From Eubacterium sp. (GTDB lineage Bacteria > Bacillota > Clostridia > Lachnospirales > Lachnospiraceae), in contig JAFRWY010000001.1 in the NCBI GenBank assembly GCA_017437905.1, forward strand, positions 1 through 38,439: a DNA stretch of 38,439 nucleotides, read 5' to 3'. Of this stretch, positions 20,643-30,479 are shown piece by piece. Position 1 is the stretch's first letter; each line of letters starts with the position of its first letter. Both the position numbers and the translations under genes were made by a program. Under the pieces are notes generated by a model. The model worked only from the letters and a program-made list of their open reading frames with translations, did not search any database and was not told the origin of the DNA.

Positions 20643-21806
20643 CTACTCCGTGTCCTGCCCCGACATTATTTCCGCGAGCGCCCCAAAGAGCCGGTCCTGT
20701 TCCGCTTCCGGCCGGACCGAAATCCGGATCCTGTCATCCGTAAGAGGCGGCATGTCTCCGCAGCACCTGACAAGGATCCCCTTCGCCAGAAGTGCATCAA
20801 AGAGCCGTCTTCCCGGGATCCCCCAGCCGTCGGTAAGGAGGAAATTCGCCTCCGACGGACATATTTCGATTGTTCGCCCAAAGCGTCTTCCTGTATCGTA
20901 AAGACCTTCTTTCATCCGTTCCCGAAGACGCGCCGTCTCCCGTGCCGTCTCATCCAGAAAATCATACAGCACCTTCCGGTGCTCTCCTGCCGCTGCCAGC
21001 ACGGCTTCCGCAAAGCATGAGAGATTCCATTCCGGAAGCGCTGCGCGGATCTGCTTCCCCAGCTCCTTCTCCCTGCAAATGAGACACCCCAGCCGGACTC
21101 CCGGCATGGCAAAGATCTTCGTAAACGCCCGGAGCACCAGAAGGTGGGAATATTTTTCCTGCAAATGCAGTCCGCTCTCCGCTTCCTTCCCGGTAAATTC
21201 AAGGAAGCATTCATCCAGGAGCACGGGAATCCCATACGCCGCCGTCTTCTCAAGCAAAGCACGCAGGACACCCGGAGCGATCATGCTGCCGCCCGGATTC
21301 CCCGGATTTACCAGGATCACAAGGTCCGTGTCCGGAGTGATCCGGTCCGCAAATTCCGCATCCGGCTGAAACCCATGCTCCCAAGCTGCCGGGTATTCTT
21401 CGAGCCGGACCTTTTCTGTCCCTGAAGCTTTCACAGTATCTTCTTCTGTCCCACGGCCGCTTCCTTCATCCCGGATTCCGCGGATTGCCCGGAGATACCC
21501 TGTAAACACCGGCGCCGGAAGCAGCACCTTCCGGGGATGCAGGGCATGTATGACCGCCATGATCAGCTCGGAGGCTCCGTTCCCGGGGATCATCCACTCC
21601 GGGGATAGCCGAAGTCCAGCCCGTTCCCCATAGAAAGCCGCTGCCGCCCGCCGGGAAGCCTCCTGCTCCGGGTCCGGATAGAAGGCCGCTGATCCTGCAG
21701 CACTTTGAATTGCATCCTGCAGCACCCGGGGCATCCCCAGCGGATTCACATTTACCGAAAAATCATATTCCACCCGGTTCCGATACCGGTCTCCACCGTG
21801 TGCCAT
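20643..21806 (-). CDS. cobD: L-threonine-O-3-phosphate decarboxylase (CobD type)
   Basis: This PLP enzyme makes (R)-1-amino-2-propanol phosphate, the linker joined to cobyric acid by CbiB. The N terminus MAHGGDRYRN...YDFSVNVNPLG matches CobD (HGGD...DFSxNxNPLG) rather than histidinol-phosphate aminotransferase. The NPGNPGG loop is near 168-173, the LLDECFLEF aspartate near 198, and the PLP lysine in LRAFTKIFAMPGVRLG is K230. A frame open from 21824 exists, but GGAGG four bases before the ATG at 21806 decides the start. It is separated from the other cobalamin genes by two glucanase genes and appears to have its own promoter. Confidence 0.88.
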   Translation of the reverse strand: MAHGGDRYRNRVEYDFSVNVNPLGMPRVLQDAIQSAAGSAAFYPDPEQEASRRAAAAFYGERAGLRLSPEWMIPGNGASELIMAVIHALHPRKVLLPAPVFTGYLRAIRGIRDEGSGRGTEEDTVKASGTEKVRLEEYPAAWEHGFQPDAEFADRITPDTDLVILVNPGNPGGSMIAPGVLRALLEKTAAYGIPVLLDECFLEFTGKEAESGLHLQEKYSHLLVLRAFTKIFAMPGVRLGCLICREKELGKQIRAALPEWNLSCFAEAVLAAAGEHRKVLYDFLDETARETARLRERMKEGLYDTGRRFGRTIEICPSEANFLLTDGWGIPGRRLFDALLAKGILVRCCGDMPPLTDDRIRISVRPEAEQDRLFGALAEIMSGQDTE

Positions 21807-26856: not shown

Positions 26857-27372
26857 TCACTTCAGCCGTTCCGGGATCCCGCAGGTGACTCTCCAGACCT
26901 CTTCCGCCTGTTCTGCCAGTTTTACCTGCAGCCGACCGACCGCTTCCCGGTACCGTTCTTCCTGCGGATCCACCGGGATCACCCCGCAGCCCACCAGATC
27001 GGAGACCACCACCAGCGGTTTTCCGGTCTGCTCCTGCGCAAGGATCTCCGTGAGGACGGATGACACGATATCCTTGATCTCAGCCGGCGCATCCGCCGTA
27101 TTCCCCGTCAGCGTAGCTGTCGCTGTCTCTGCCGGTACACCCGCCACAGTCCCTGTCGGCGCATCCGCGGCGATTTCTGCACGCTCCTCTGCAACGATTT
27201 CTGTCGGCGTAACCGCCGCTGCCTCTGCCGCTACCTCCGCCGGACTGCCTCCCATCCGCAGTCGGTGCAGGATCATCTTCTCGGGATGCAGCACCAGCCT
27301 GCAGTCCGTGCCGTGTATTTCATTTGCCAGCGCCTCTTGCCCCTGCGCTCTTCCGCCTACATAGAGTATCAT
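26857..27372 (-). CDS. Degenerate CobU paralogue (adenosylcobinamide kinase-like) with 8-residue tandem repeats
   Basis: The C-terminal part, VVVSDLVGCGVIPVDPQEER and then WRVTCGIPERLK, matches the end of CobU kinase/guanylyltransferases. The N terminus MILYVGGRAQGQEAL occupies the P-loop position, but GK[ST] is replaced by GQE, so ATP or GTP binding by the normal mode is unlikely. Residues 55-101 are six imperfect 8-residue repeats (PTEIVAE-, APTGTVAG-, VPAETATA-like) with no counterpart in CobU. Without them the core is only about 125 residues against a usual 180. The ATG at 27372 has GGAG six bases upstream, and cobS ends 17 bases before it. It may be a pseudo-enzyme or partner of the true CobU nearby; I infer loss of kinase activity. 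Confidence 0.7.
   Translation of the reverse strand: MILYVGGRAQGQEALANEIHGTDCRLVLHPEKMILHRLRMGGSPAEVAAEAAAVTPTEIVAEERAEIAADAPTGTVAGVPAETATATLTGNTADAPAEIKDIVSSVLTEILAQEQTGKPLVVVSDLVGCGVIPVDPQEERYREAVGRLQVKLAEQAEEVWRVTCGIPERLK
27070..27210. repeat. 24-bp in-frame tandem repeats in the cobU paralogue
   Basis: Six adjacent imperfect 24-bp units encode 8-residue blocks with P-[TA]-[EG]-[IT] near the start of most units. The unit is multiple-of-three, so the reading frame is kept. Confidence 0.75.
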
Positions 27373-27389
27373 ATTTTCTCCGTCTTGTC

Positions 27390-28199
27390 TTAACCTGCCT
27401 GTTTCATCACAGCATATTCCACCGCCAGCGAGAGCAGCATGGCGCACTCACTCACCGACAGGAACCATCCTGCCAGATCCCCGGTGATTCCTCCCACGGG
27501 ACGCACCCTGCCGAGAAGGAACCAGCCCGTAACGAAAATGAGAGCCAGTAGTTCCAGCGTCATCATCAGCGGGGACAGGATCAGTCCTGCGATCACGACT
27601 GTCAGTCCCTGCACGGCCAGGAGCACCAGATTCACCGAAACCGATGCTCTGTCCTTCAGTGCCGCCGCCATCCCGTCTTTTTTGGCAGCCGGCTGTGTCA
27701 GGACCAGGATCCCGGACGCCACTCGCCCGAGGATAAAGCTTCCTGCAAAAAGCAGTACTCCTTCCTTCTGCAGCTGGTCATCCCCGGTATCCTGCACCAG
27801 GATAAAAAGTCCCGCCAGATAAAGTCCTGCCAGGATCAGCACCCGGATCACCGCGAAGGATCCGATGTGCGGATCCGAAAGGGTCTTCAGTTTCTTCTCC
27901 CTGTCGCCATAGGAGTGAAATGCGTCCGCAGTATCCATAAACCCGTCCAGGTGGATCCCACCGGTCACGATCAGCGGAAGCACTCCCATGATCAGGGCTT
28001 TCGCCGCTGCCGGTACCGGAAGAAACCGGTAGCAAAGATACTCCAGCACTCCCGTCAGGATCCCCACCCAGGGGAAGAACCCCAGCGTATAGCGCATATC
28101 CTCCGGGTTCCAGTTTGCTGCCTTTCCCTGAGGGACCGGGATCCGCGAATAGGTGGAGAACGCATTTCCTATGGATTTAATGATCGATCGGAATCCCAC
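27390..28199 (-). CDS. cobS: Adenosylcobinamide-GDP ribazoletransferase CobS
   Basis: CobS, an integral membrane enzyme, joins activated cobinamide to alpha-ribazole to finish the cobalamin nucleotide loop. The 269-residue protein begins GFRSIIKSIGNAFSTYSRIP and has the signature GGIHLDGFMDTADA at 80-93, followed by SDPHIGSFAVI. It has several hydrophobic helices. The start is a GTG with GGAGG six bases before it. The gene overlaps the end of cobU by 23 bases, strong evidence for translational coupling. Length and motifs are normal. Confidence 0.95.
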   Translation of the reverse strand: MGFRSIIKSIGNAFSTYSRIPVPQGKAANWNPEDMRYTLGFFPWVGILTGVLEYLCYRFLPVPAAAKALIMGVLPLIVTGGIHLDGFMDTADAFHSYGDREKKLKTLSDPHIGSFAVIRVLILAGLYLAGLFILVQDTGDDQLQKEGVLLFAGSFILGRVASGILVLTQPAAKKDGMAAALKDRASVSVNLVLLAVQGLTVVIAGLILSPLMMTLELLALIFVTGWFLLGRVRPVGGITGDLAGWFLSVSECAMLLSLAVEYAVMKQAG

Positions 28200-28830
28200 A
28201 GACTACCTCCGTCACACGGTCCGCCCGCTCCGCCAGCCAACGGTGCAATTCACCGAGATTGTCCAGATAGCCTTCCGTTGTATCATCATATACCGCACCG
28301 TCTTCGAAGATATCTCCCGATACGATGATCAGCTGTTCCGCATGCCGGGACAGCTCCAGAAGATCGGTTTTCAGCTTCCGGAGGATCTCTCTGCGGTGCA
28401 TATCCTCACCTGCGCCGGCATTCTCCGTTGATACATCCACGCCTGCGCCGGCATCCCGCGGCGGTACATCTTCGCCCGCTCCGACATCCTCCGTCGGTAT
28501 ATCCCCGCCCGGACCAAACATCCGGTTTGCCAGCAGATTCGGCAGGTCCTCCAGCAGGATTACCCCTGCTGCAACCCCGTCCCATGAAGGTATATCCAGT
28601 TCCGGATCCTCCATGGTGATAAATCCCCTGCCCCGTCTTTGCTCCACATGCTTCCGGATCCGTTCCTCCGCTGCGGCACTGCGGCGCATGGTAGCCAGAT
28701 AGATCCGGACATTCGGTCCTTTCAGGGCAAGACCCTCGGCATATTCGGATTTCCCGGATGCCGCACCGCCGAAAATGAGGCGGATCCCCCGCCAGGTCTT
28801 CAGCATCGGTTCGATTCGCATTTCACTCAT
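28177..28830 (-). CDS. cobU: Adenosylcobinamide kinase/guanylyltransferase CobU with an 11-residue tandem repeat insertion
   Basis: CobU phosphorylates adenosylcobinamide and then attaches GMP. The P-loop FGGAASGKSEYAE is at 20-32, the putative guanylylated histidine lies in RIRKHVEQRRGRGF (H61), and ILLEDLPNLLANRMF follows near 91-105. Between 108 and 143 there is a glycine/acid-rich tandem repeat (GGDIPTEDVGA, GEDVPPRDAGA, GVDVSTENAGA) that normal CobU proteins lack. After it the fold resumes with LIIVSGDIFEDGAVYD and ends VCGIPIDH, a divergent form of the usual NEVGxGIVP segment. The ATG has AGAGG eight bases upstream. It overlaps cobS and starts 35 bases after cobQ. The paralogue downstream keeps the C-terminal motif this one has altered. 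Confidence 0.87.
   Translation of the reverse strand: MSEMRIEPMLKTWRGIRLIFGGAASGKSEYAEGLALKGPNVRIYLATMRRSAAAEERIRKHVEQRRGRGFITMEDPELDIPSWDGVAAGVILLEDLPNLLANRMFGPGGDIPTEDVGAGEDVPPRDAGAGVDVSTENAGAGEDMHRREILRKLKTDLLELSRHAEQLIIVSGDIFEDGAVYDDTTEGYLDNLGELHRWLAERADRVTEVVCGIPIDH
28405..28503. repeat. cobU: 33-bp in-frame tandem repeats in cobU
   Basis: Three adjacent 33-bp units (28405-28437, 28438-28470, 28471-28503) with partial units on both sides encode 11-residue blocks of the form G-x-D-x-x-x-x-[DN]-x-G-A. Confidence 0.8.
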
Positions 28831-28865
28831 CCGGTCATCCTCTCCTCATCTCACGGGTCCCCGGT

Positions 28866-30479
28866 TCATAGTCCCAGGATCCCGTATATCAGCTTCATAT
28901 CCAGTGACCCCCTCAGCAGATCTGCCAGGCGGTCGTATTCTCTTTCTTTAAATGCGGCATGATCCACCGGCTCCGCCTCCGGCAGTTCTATCCCCCGGAG
29001 ACGTGCAAGGCTCCTCCTAAGTGCCGGGATCACCTCCGGCCCGTCAAAGAACCCATGAAGATAGGTTCCGTAGGCATTTCCCGCTTCCACGAGGATGCCC
29101 GTACAAGTATCTTCCGAACCGGCGGCATCCAACCTGTCCTGCGCCTTCGGTCCGGCGGCATTCGACCTGTCCTGCGCTTTCGATCCGGTGGCATCCAACC
29201 TGTCCTGCGTTTTCGATCCGGAGACACATGACACATCCCGAGCTCCAGCCTCCTGCTCCCGCAAATGCACCGTCCGGCCCATATGGATCTCATACCCCTG
29301 CACCGCGCATCCCTCCAGTTCCCGAAGGGGTCCCTGCAGTGTACCGATCCGTCCTTTACTCCGGGTCTGCACCTTTTCTGGCATAAGGACCGTGGATACC
29401 GGGAGCAGTCCCAGACCCATTTCCTCTCCGCCCCGCTCCGTCTGCCCCGGATCACGGATCATTTCTCCCAGCATCTGGAAGCCTCCGCAGATTCCCAGTA
29501 CCGGCCCTGTGACGGCGTAGGCCCGGATCGAACGGGCAAGTCCCGTTTCACCCAGCCATTCAAGATCCGCCAGTGTGTTCTTCGAACCCGGCAGGATGAG
29601 CAGATCCGGATGTCCCAAATCCTCCGGCCGTGTCACGTACCGGACGGACATATCCGGCCACGCATCATATACATCCAGGTCCGTGAAATTGGAGATCCTC
29701 GGATACCGGATGACCGCGATGTCGAAAAGCGCTCCTCCCTGTCCGGAAATGTGCTTCAGCCGGTCGGACATACTGTCCTCGTCGGAAAGTGCAAGTTCCA
29801 TATAGGGAACCACTCCCGCCACCGGCAGTCCGGACCGTTCCTCCAGAATCCGTACCCCGTCTTCAAAAAGGGAACGGTCTCCCCGGAACTTATTTACGAT
29901 CAGGCCCTTTACCCGGGCTCTTTCCGCCTCCGTCAGGAGCTCCAGCGTGCCCAGCAGCTGTGCAAAGACACCGCCTGGATCAATATCTCCCACCAGCAGC
30001 ACCGGTGCATCCACCAGTTCCGCCAGTCCCATATTCACCAGATCGTCCTGTTTCAGATTCATTTCCACCGGACTTCCGGCGCCCTCGATCAGCACGATAT
30101 CCGCCGCAGCCTCCAGCCGTTGAAAGGATTCCAGGATCCGCGGACGAAACTCCGCCTTTCTCCGGTAGAACTCCTTCGCTGTCATGTCAGCCAGCACCTG
30201 CCCCTGCAGGATCACCTGGGAGCCGGTAAGACCGGTGGGTTTCAGCAGCAGCGGATTCATGTCCGCGTTCGGTTCCACGCCTGCTGCCTCCGCCTGAAGG
30301 ATCTGTGCGCGGGAGATCTCCCTTCCCTCCGGCGTGATGCAGGAATTCAGGGACATATTCTGGGCCTTGAAGGGCATTACAATATACCCGTCCTGCCGGA
30401 AGATCCGGCAGAGGCCGGCGGTAAGAAGGGTTTTTCCCACATTTGACATTGTCCCCTGAAGCATCAGCCGTCGCGCCAT
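28866..30479 (-). CDS. cobQ: Cobyric acid synthase CobQ/CbiP with an 11-residue tandem repeat insertion
   Basis: This enzyme uses glutamine and ATP to amidate four carboxylates of adenosylcobyrinic acid a,c-diamide. The N-terminal synthetase half has LQGTMSNVGKTLLTAG (P-loop 9-17) and MPFKAQNMSLNSCIT. The C-terminal triad glutaminase has the cysteine nucleophile in LGICGGFQMLGE near 330 and the histidine in YGTYLHGFFD near 475. Between IHMGRTVHL and GNAYGTYLHG lies a hydrophilic insert with three 11-residue repeats (GSKTQDRLDAT, GSKAQDRSNAA, GPKAQDRLDAA). The insert sits in a surface stretch between conserved strands, so activity is probably kept. GGGAGG precedes the ATG. It is the first gene of the late cobalamin run and stands back to back with a plus-strand gene. 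No cobalamin riboswitch is visible upstream. Confidence 0.93.
   Translation of the reverse strand: MARRLMLQGTMSNVGKTLLTAGLCRIFRQDGYIVMPFKAQNMSLNSCITPEGREISRAQILQAEAAGVEPNADMNPLLLKPTGLTGSQVILQGQVLADMTAKEFYRRKAEFRPRILESFQRLEAAADIVLIEGAGSPVEMNLKQDDLVNMGLAELVDAPVLLVGDIDPGGVFAQLLGTLELLTEAERARVKGLIVNKFRGDRSLFEDGVRILEERSGLPVAGVVPYMELALSDEDSMSDRLKHISGQGGALFDIAVIRYPRISNFTDLDVYDAWPDMSVRYVTRPEDLGHPDLLILPGSKNTLADLEWLGETGLARSIRAYAVTGPVLGICGGFQMLGEMIRDPGQTERGGEEMGLGLLPVSTVLMPEKVQTRSKGRIGTLQGPLRELEGCAVQGYEIHMGRTVHLREQEAGARDVSCVSGSKTQDRLDATGSKAQDRSNAAGPKAQDRLDAAGSEDTCTGILVEAGNAYGTYLHGFFDGPEVIPALRRSLARLRGIELPEAEPVDHAAFKEREYDRLADLLRGSLDMKLIYGILGL
29121..29219. repeat. cobQ: 33-bp in-frame tandem repeats in cobQ
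   Basis: Three adjacent 33-bp units (29121-29153, 29154-29186, 29187-29219) differ pairwise at about four positions. Several differences are third-base or conservative changes. Confidence 0.88.

Follow-up and report, generated by a model that had tools for sequence, protein, structure and literature searches.

The repeat inserts in cobalamin enzymes of this rumen-type Lachnospiraceae genome are best explained, at a probability of roughly 0.77, as lineage-specific tandem duplications that are frequent in the genus, pass a reading-frame filter, and persist in permissive loops of dispensable enzymes. The window, by which we mean the whole stretch of 38,439 nucleotides that was analyzed, belongs to a draft and possibly metagenome-assembled genome of 133 contigs and carries on its minus strand the gene order cobQ, cobU, cobS, and a short cobU paralogue. 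As the first-pass annotation had claimed, the repeats in cobQ, cobU, and the paralogue are mutually unrelated in sequence and in frame, with periods of 33, 33, and 24 bp that are all multiples of three inside open frames, and the self-similarity of each of the three loops exceeded that of 300 codon shuffles (1/301 each). The cobS gene that sits between the repeat-bearing genes (27390..28199, minus strand; Pfam CobS, 144.7 bits) gave no TRF row at a score of at least 30. The threonine-phosphate decarboxylase CobD has a hydrophilic insert of a related kind, which TRF does not report as an array, at approximately 21408..21494 (minus strand). The insert amounts to a median 17-aa insertion against five homologues from other sources; the CobD of the window has 366 aa over 313 profile positions. 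No second genome of the same species was found among the genomes searched, from which very near records may be missing, and the nearest full CobQ match among the genus genomes searched was at 72% (G049).

The cobQ gene (28866..30479, minus strand) encodes a 537-aa cobyric acid synthase, residues 4-534 of which align full-length to positions 2-478 of NCBIfam PRK00784 at 593.5 bits, above the curated cut-off of 273; at E 0.001 it had no sequence match among solved structures. Alignment with homologues places a variable loop of 64 aa (29070..29261, minus strand) between the motifs YEIHMGRT and NAYGTYLHG. Within this loop lies the 33-bp array described earlier, which TRF resolved as 3.4 in-frame copies (29111..29221, minus strand; score 166) encoding the units TQDRLDATGSK, AQDRSNAAGPK, and AQDRLDAAGSE. 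In 28 genus loci the loop measured 10-92 aa, compared with 19-40 aa in 74 unassigned loci, meaning loci that matched none of the genomes placed in the genus. Six duplicate loci and matches below 150 bits were removed beforehand, and L107 and L109 are truncated. Loops longer than 40 aa were found in 5 of the 28 genus loci and in none of the 74 others. Two congeneric loci carry units of their own at this position, one of 13 aa repeated about three times (L087) and one of 12 aa repeated about five times (L088). In the four nearest relatives, whose CobQ shares 58-78% identity, the CobQ loops measure 38, 21, 21, and 14 aa and lack the unit found in the window. When the cobQ array was searched in its own genome, no second copy appeared, the next matches spanning only 14-19 bp; this single copy rules out that the cobQ array is a mobile repeat, with inserted copies of one element. 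With 67-68% identity to genus rows, L008, L010, and L012 may belong to the genus or to a sister genus, and arrays are plentiful in L012 as well.

A similar picture emerged for cobU (28177..28830, minus strand), which encodes a 217-aa adenosylcobinamide kinase/guanylyltransferase with solved relatives (1c9k/1cbu, 7tm8, and 9vio). It matches Pfam CobU at 80.4 bits (cut-off 27) and misses the stricter NCBIfam equivalog cut-off (60.8 of 161 bits). Its P-loop columns G26, K27, and S28 are invariant in 25 sequences, the CobU of the window among them. Following LLEDLPNLLANRMF, alignment with homologues delimits a variable loop of 44 aa (28384..28515, minus strand), in which TRF recovered the 33-bp units claimed earlier as an in-frame array of 3.3 copies (28402..28509, minus strand; score 118). 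With the short CobU paralogue (row L002) and an additional short row of L028 set aside, this loop spans 7-53 aa in 27 genus rows and 6-29 aa in 38 unassigned ones; it reaches at least 30 aa in 8/27 genus rows versus 0/38 others. The congeneric locus L169 holds 14-aa units of its own. By profile, then, CobQ and CobU belong to the known families and differ from known members in a loop between conserved blocks that tandem repeats have enlarged. The expectation that homologues normally lack such inserts was not borne out for either enzyme, as a loop whose length varies occupies the same place in the aligned homologues and some congeners fill it with unrelated repeats. Because unrelated repeats recur at the same two loops in some relatives, we read them as tolerated, group-wide repeat growth and not as a special B12 device. 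Their position in length-variable loops suggests that the inserts are exposed at the protein surface.

The third array is far more degraded. The short CobU paralogue (26857..27447, minus strand) is an incomplete CobU domain corresponding to the C-terminal half, with a Pfam match confined to residues 124-194 and profile positions 97-167. Six 24-bp units had been described in it; a 24-bp period is indeed detectable, but TRF did not report it and returned just two weak rows with a 12-bp unit (27171..27203, score 34; 27213..27242, score 46). About seven degenerate units at about 27082..27249 (minus strand) have a mean identity of 0.57, but their autocorrelation at period 24 was higher than in all 2000 codon shuffles (p 0.0005). 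The hydrophilic character ascribed to all three blocks did not fully extend to the paralogue, whose block is rich in Ala, Thr, and Glu and not strongly hydrophilic. Across the arrays, the mean divergence between units ranges from 16 to 43% of bases, with pN/pS values of 0.93, 0.79, and 0.75 that are imprecise given the few sites.

Such nearly neutral units, together with replacement of the P-loop lysine of the paralogue (GGRAQGQ), a residue that 14 of the other 18 genus rows shown retain, could indicate a decaying pathway in which inserts mark enzymes that are becoming pseudogenes. We regard this as quite unlikely, given that the frames are open and that CobQ and CobU share all columns invariant across 36 and 25 aligned proteins, respectively (the proteins of the window included). 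Moreover, CbiD, CbiG, CbiH, CbiJ-CbiE-CbiT, and CobB, encoded elsewhere in the genome, have open frames with strong profile matches. An assembly artefact might be suspected in a genome of so many contigs, and many relatives have records with a MAG label; it is nevertheless extremely improbable, as the frames remain open, the single-contig congeners G006 and G004 hold similar arrays, and the base differences between units show that these are not duplicated reads.

Arrays proved to be abundant well beyond the cobalamin locus. An 11% sample of the genome contained 34 arrays in 340 kb, or 10.0 per 100 kb, mostly in linkers or tails where Pfam could name the gene. The spread of repeats through the genome, which the first-pass annotation had named as evidence against its own proposal, was largely borne out. 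Densities were 5.0-13.5 per 100 kb in seven congeners and 1.2-3.7 in five other genera of the family. When pooled, the genus had 112 arrays in 1.12 Mb, from stretches that are partly cobalamin regions, versus 9 in 0.40 Mb for the outgroups (p 2e-7); the unselected genus sets alone (the genome itself, G006, G004, and G001) gave 80 arrays in 820 kb. At score 60 the window has 2 arrays in 38 kb (5.2 per 100 kb), a lower density than that of the genome sample, and local enrichment was rejected on this ground. The spacing of the arrays, with those of cobQ and cobU about 0.6 kb apart and the degraded third within about 2.2 kb, could be taken to reflect a local hot spot, in which a feature of replication or recombination around 27-30 kb on the contig promotes repeat expansion. 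However, 10 of the 34 arrays in the genome sample also have a neighbouring array within 1 kb (four, for example, lie within 1.7 kb in L181), and congeners bear repeats in the same loops. Together with the lower density of the window, this makes a hot spot very improbable. The suggested tendency to expand short repeats that are tolerated in loops was therefore supported, but as a property of the genus and not of the locus. All 16 genomes checked, 9 from the genus and 7 from other genera, have MutS (MutS1) and MutL above the cut-off, so no simple loss of mismatch repair lies behind the repeat richness, and this source was ruled out.

Reading frame and protein context both appear to filter these arrays. 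Periods that are multiples of three were found for 70 of the 76 genus arrays in frames of at least 250 codons versus 4 of the 21 in frames of fewer than 150 codons or none, frames being assigned as the longest open frame over the array, a rule that can choose the wrong strand. Pfam naming was applied to 30 frames covering 24 of the 34 arrays in the genome sample, excluding the GW/choline-binding type arrays in L175 and L182 and the arrays without a long frame. Those inside a Pfam domain were in one ABC transporter and a choline-binding repeat domain, and one further array touches the end of a sub-threshold DUF4129 match. That arrays are rarer within enzyme domains than in linkers counts against the explanation we favor. 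In CTP synthase (PyrG), insertions of 12-14 aa were present in 2 of 43 genus sequences by a block criterion, and no repeat was seen in the insertion blocks of these 43 sequences; the third block consists mostly of masked letters.

The clustering of arrays in cobalamin genes can be accounted for by the loops that these enzymes own and by the dispensability of the pathway, without joint action of the repeats. Of 61 genus genomes, 34 gave a CobQ match (in G020 only a short amidotransferase-like one), as did 20 of the 31 good ones, compared with 59 of 61 for PyrG, and the cobalamin pathway is thus dispensable in the genus. Large inserts showed a moderate bias towards cobalamin enzymes in a comparison with family profiles that was post hoc, made after the first values had been seen. 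Here, an excess of at least 30 aa over the profile was seen in 6 of 12 cobalamin enzymes and in 1 of the 15 controls chosen first (Fisher p 0.024, Mann-Whitney p 0.016). These controls comprised 11 of 20 random proteins and 4 of 10 window proteins, and excluded proteins without a family or with a partial match as well as MutS, MutL, and PyrG. Widening the set to 22 measurable controls by adding those three and four more measurable proteins, with ClpB-like and MacB-like proteins still left out, weakened the bias (6/12 versus 3/22; p 0.040 and 0.043). A pairwise scan for median insertions of at least 15 aa lends weak support to an insert excess in the genus, with 12/53 genus, 0/4 family-outgroup, and 16/471 other-locus ORFs positive (Fisher run on 53 versus 471); only these ORFs could be scored because most random genes found no partner, and they came largely from cobalamin regions.

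This bias also speaks for a functional reading, in which disordered linkers in CobQ, CobU, and its paralogue, as well as in CobB, CobD, CbiD, and CbiG, help to tether consecutive pathway enzymes under selection on length and disorder, not on sequence. CobB, on another contig, likewise holds a 24-bp repeat of 2.2 copies inside its loop insert. We nonetheless consider such tethering very unlikely. No motif common to the enzymes or species was seen, the nearest CobQ loops lack the unit, several congeners have CobQ or CobU loops of only 10-21 aa or less, and unit change is near-neutral, so the earlier idea of linkers that join the enzymes found no positive support. Furthermore, the excess over the profile is no more than 12 aa in CobS, CbiB, CbiH, CbiJ, and CbiT, arrays also occur in proteins as unrelated as IF-2 and a cell-wall peptidase, and MutS (+54) and MutL (+97) of the same genome exceed their profiles as well, as do their outgroup counterparts. 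A weaker version survives because of the moderate, post hoc bias: throughout the genus, tandem duplication may repeatedly give cobalamin enzymes disordered loop extensions that are selected for length and flexibility but not for sequence, for example for loose enzyme association, with sequence turnover hiding a conserved physical function. We judge this version very unlikely too. Under the favored explanation of tolerated duplication, even tolerance alone would not predict over-representation in cobalamin enzymes, and relaxed constraint on the pathway must be assumed.

On that explanation, segments of tens of bases would be tandemly duplicated unusually often all over the genomes of the genus, a high rate that we propose as the cause of the repeat richness. 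Duplications of 24-33 bp would arise in place, in loops under weak length constraint; within genes mainly those of a multiple of three bases would survive, and within enzymes mainly those in loops of already variable length. Once formed, the units would drift nearly neutrally until hardly recognizable. Judged by unit divergence, the array of the cobU paralogue probably represents the oldest stage and that of cobQ the youngest.

Several features of these arrays have precedents. Prokaryotic coding satellites have units of 10-200 nt, most long ones being multiples of three, which suggests amino-acid repeats, and those of C. difficile are all unique and unrelated to each other (PMC6749651). The cobQ and cobU units resemble them in being multiples of three and mutually unrelated; unlike that survey, which demanded at least four repeats, we describe arrays of 3.3-3.4 copies placed between conserved enzyme blocks. 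Legionella pneumophila carries intragenic tandem repeats whose copy number varies between strains (PMC2639597); the repeats described here are likewise in frame and intragenic, with strain variation measured in Legionella and a single strain represented here. A census of protein tandem repeats found them enriched in intrinsic disorder and often located at sequence flanks (PMC7230257). Our repeats share the disorder-promoting composition and an origin mostly by duplication, but occupy internal enzyme loops. A literature search over titles and the starts of abstracts, covering part of the matching literature, found no report of repeats in CobQ, CobU, or enzymes of rumen Lachnospiraceae.

These results carry the caution that length and low complexity alone are no sign of function. 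They also reveal a natural insertion-scanning experiment in conserved enzymes, in which two loops were enlarged several times independently by unrelated repeats within one genus. The experiment maps the tolerance of CobQ and CobU for long insertions, which is useful for tagging, and the genus offers a setting for following how coding tandem repeats arise and decay and whether they are biased towards a dispensable pathway.

Using NCBIfam and Pfam, we identified four cobalamin genes, all on the window's minus strand: cobQ (28866-30479), cobU (28177-28830), cobS (27390-28199) and, as the fourth, a short paralogue of cobU (26857-27447). The first-pass annotation had claimed in-frame tandem-repeat inserts in CobQ, CobU and the paralogue, with repeat sequences unrelated to each other. 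TRF detected clear 33-bp arrays in cobQ (29111-29221; 3.4 copies, 84% matches) and cobU (28402-28509; 3.3 copies, 74% matches), and these two arrays are real. Their translated units (TQDRLDATGSK/AQDRSNAAGPK/AQDRLDAAGSE in CobQ and GPGGDIPTEDV/GAGEDVPPRDA/GAGVDVSTENA in CobU) indeed show no relationship. The third insert survives as a decayed array: TRF returned no 24-bp row in the paralogue, just two weak 12-bp rows (27171-27203, score 34; 27213-27242, score 46), but an in-frame reading of the block gave about seven 24-bp units with a mean identity of 0.57, and its 24-bp autocorrelation exceeded that of all 2000 codon shuffles.

The paralogue, which adjoins cobS, comprises the C-terminal half of CobU and a reduced N-terminal P-loop region. 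Such short proteins recur in the genus, in other Clostridia and in a Coriobacteriaceae record (loci L006, L011, L020, L023, L026 and L027 beyond the genus); the P-loop lysine is lost in the window's copy and kept in 14 of 18 other genus rows. Elsewhere in the window, its start (61-2534) encodes specificity and methylase subunits of a type I restriction-modification system.

We located the CobQ array in an alignment of 80 loci of the genome collection plus congeners, where it is flanked by the conserved blocks YEIHMG and GTYLHG. The segment enclosed by them spans 10-92 aa in the 28 genus loci of full length, as opposed to 19-40 aa among the 74 loci without assignment to the genus, three of which (L008, L010 and L012) are 67-68% identical to genus rows and may, judging from sequence, represent congeners or a sister genus; it exceeds 40 aa in 5/28 and 0/74, respectively. 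The CobU array follows LLEDLPNLLANRMF; its segment measures 7-53 aa in the 27 genus rows as against 6-29 aa in the other 38, with lengths of at least 30 aa in 8/27 and 0/38, respectively. Columns invariant among 36 CobQ and 25 CobU sequences (the window's included) contain CobQ Cys330 and His474 and the CobU P-loop, residues with a catalytic role in these families. Length variation and composition suggest that the inserts are solvent-exposed.

The window's CobQ units are absent from its four nearest relatives (CobQ 58-78% identical), whose loops measure 38, 21, 21 and 14 aa. Other congeners carry repeats of their own at exactly these sites: in the CobQ loop, L087 has about three copies of a 13-aa unit and L088 about five of a 12-aa unit, and in the CobU loop L169 has a 14-aa unit. 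Therefore, repeats were born here several times, independently. A second strain of the window's species was not found in a search that may omit records very near the window's genome. In two congeners (L092:568-3006 and L087:2-2485), CobQ comes after a FecE/corrinoid-type ABC transporter ATPase within a single reading frame, and several other genus and family genomes have open frames for CobQ that run to about 770-850 codons.

Counting arrays with a score of at least 60 and a period of at least 12, we found 34 in 20 stretches of the window's own genome (340 kb, 11% of the genome; 10.0 per 100 kb), against 2 in the 38 kb of the window (5.2 per 100 kb). Because 10 of these 34 arrays have another within 1 kb, the close cobU/cobQ pair is unremarkable. 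Density was 5.0-13.5 per 100 kb in seven congeners versus 1.2-3.7 in five genera of the same family, and pooled counts were 112 in 1.12 Mb versus 9 in 0.40 Mb (p 2e-7), about a fourfold richness over the sampled outgroups. Some congener stretches cover cobalamin regions, but the unselected genus sets alone (80 arrays in 820 kb) gave an equal density. The 74 other cobalamin loci had 2.8 per 100 kb in an earlier count. Simple loss of mismatch repair does not explain this richness, as its genes were found in 16/16 genomes checked. In-frame tandem repeats also lie near cobQ in a rumen Methanosarcinaceae genome (L058:8508-8651 and L058:10161-10326), possibly a sign of a broader pattern in the rumen.

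Periods were multiples of three in 70/76 genus-sample arrays within open frames of at least 250 codons, as compared with 4/21 in frames below 150 codons or outside frames; frame-breaking duplications are therefore mostly missing from genes. Nonsynonymous/synonymous ratios between units (0.93 in cobQ, 0.79 in cobU and 0.75 in the paralogue) come from few sites, at which divergence within arrays appears close to neutral.

Pfam was applied to frames covering 24 of the 34 own-genome arrays. Those in named proteins lay mostly in linkers or tails: the N-terminal part of IF-2, a PcsB-like M23 peptidase, a polysaccharide deacetylase, zinc-ribbon proteins, a protein kinase tail, and the N-termini of a YceG-like and a DUF3137 protein. 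Arrays within a domain were found in an ABC transporter and in a choline-binding repeat domain, itself inherently repetitive; one further array reached the end of a DUF4129 match below threshold. Repeats in CobQ, CobU and CobB, by contrast, lie between conserved blocks; the insert of CobB, which is encoded on another contig of the same genome (L351:5750-7582), is 55 aa long and includes a 24-bp x 2.2 repeat. In genome G016, a 300-codon frame with homologues elsewhere (L234:5951-6850) contains both a 30-bp tandem repeat and an insertion of 42 aa.

Among the cobalamin enzymes, excess measured as protein span minus profile span in aa was large in CobQ (+54), CobU (+36), CobD (+53), CobB (+57), CbiD (+32) and CbiG (+43), and between -2 and +18 in CbiB, CobS, CbiH, CbiJ, CbiE and CbiT. 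Among 15 control proteins RsmF (+42) alone reached 30 (Fisher p 0.024, Mann-Whitney p 0.016). That set had omitted measurable proteins; after widening with MutS (+54), MutL (+97), PyrG (+16) and four more, 3/22 controls were at 30 or above (p 0.040 and 0.043), and outgroup MutS and MutL likewise extend past their profiles. Since we settled on this comparison once the first values were known, we regard the cobalamin bias as a lead rather than a result. The MutS of the window's genome carries a hydrophilic insert close to its C-terminus, before the C-terminal segment, and thus conserved non-cobalamin genes are not exempt; MutS of genome G025 has one before this segment too. Our reading of the bias is that constraint is relaxed because the pathway is dispensable: CobQ matches occur in 34/61 genus genomes (20/31 among good ones; one of the 34, in G020, is just a short amidotransferase-like match) compared with 59/61 for PyrG. 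A selected role of the inserts is the most interesting alternative.

Together, the arrays involve no unusual mechanism and do not characterize the cobalamin operon as such. They are most likely coding minisatellites that arose by tandem duplication, were filtered for reading frame and were retained in tolerant loops, in a genus where repeats of this kind abound. Among the papers listed by literature term searches, none dealt with repeats in CobQ/CobU or in this bacterial group; comparable coding repeats have been described in prokaryotes (PMC6749651, PMC2639597, PMC7230257).
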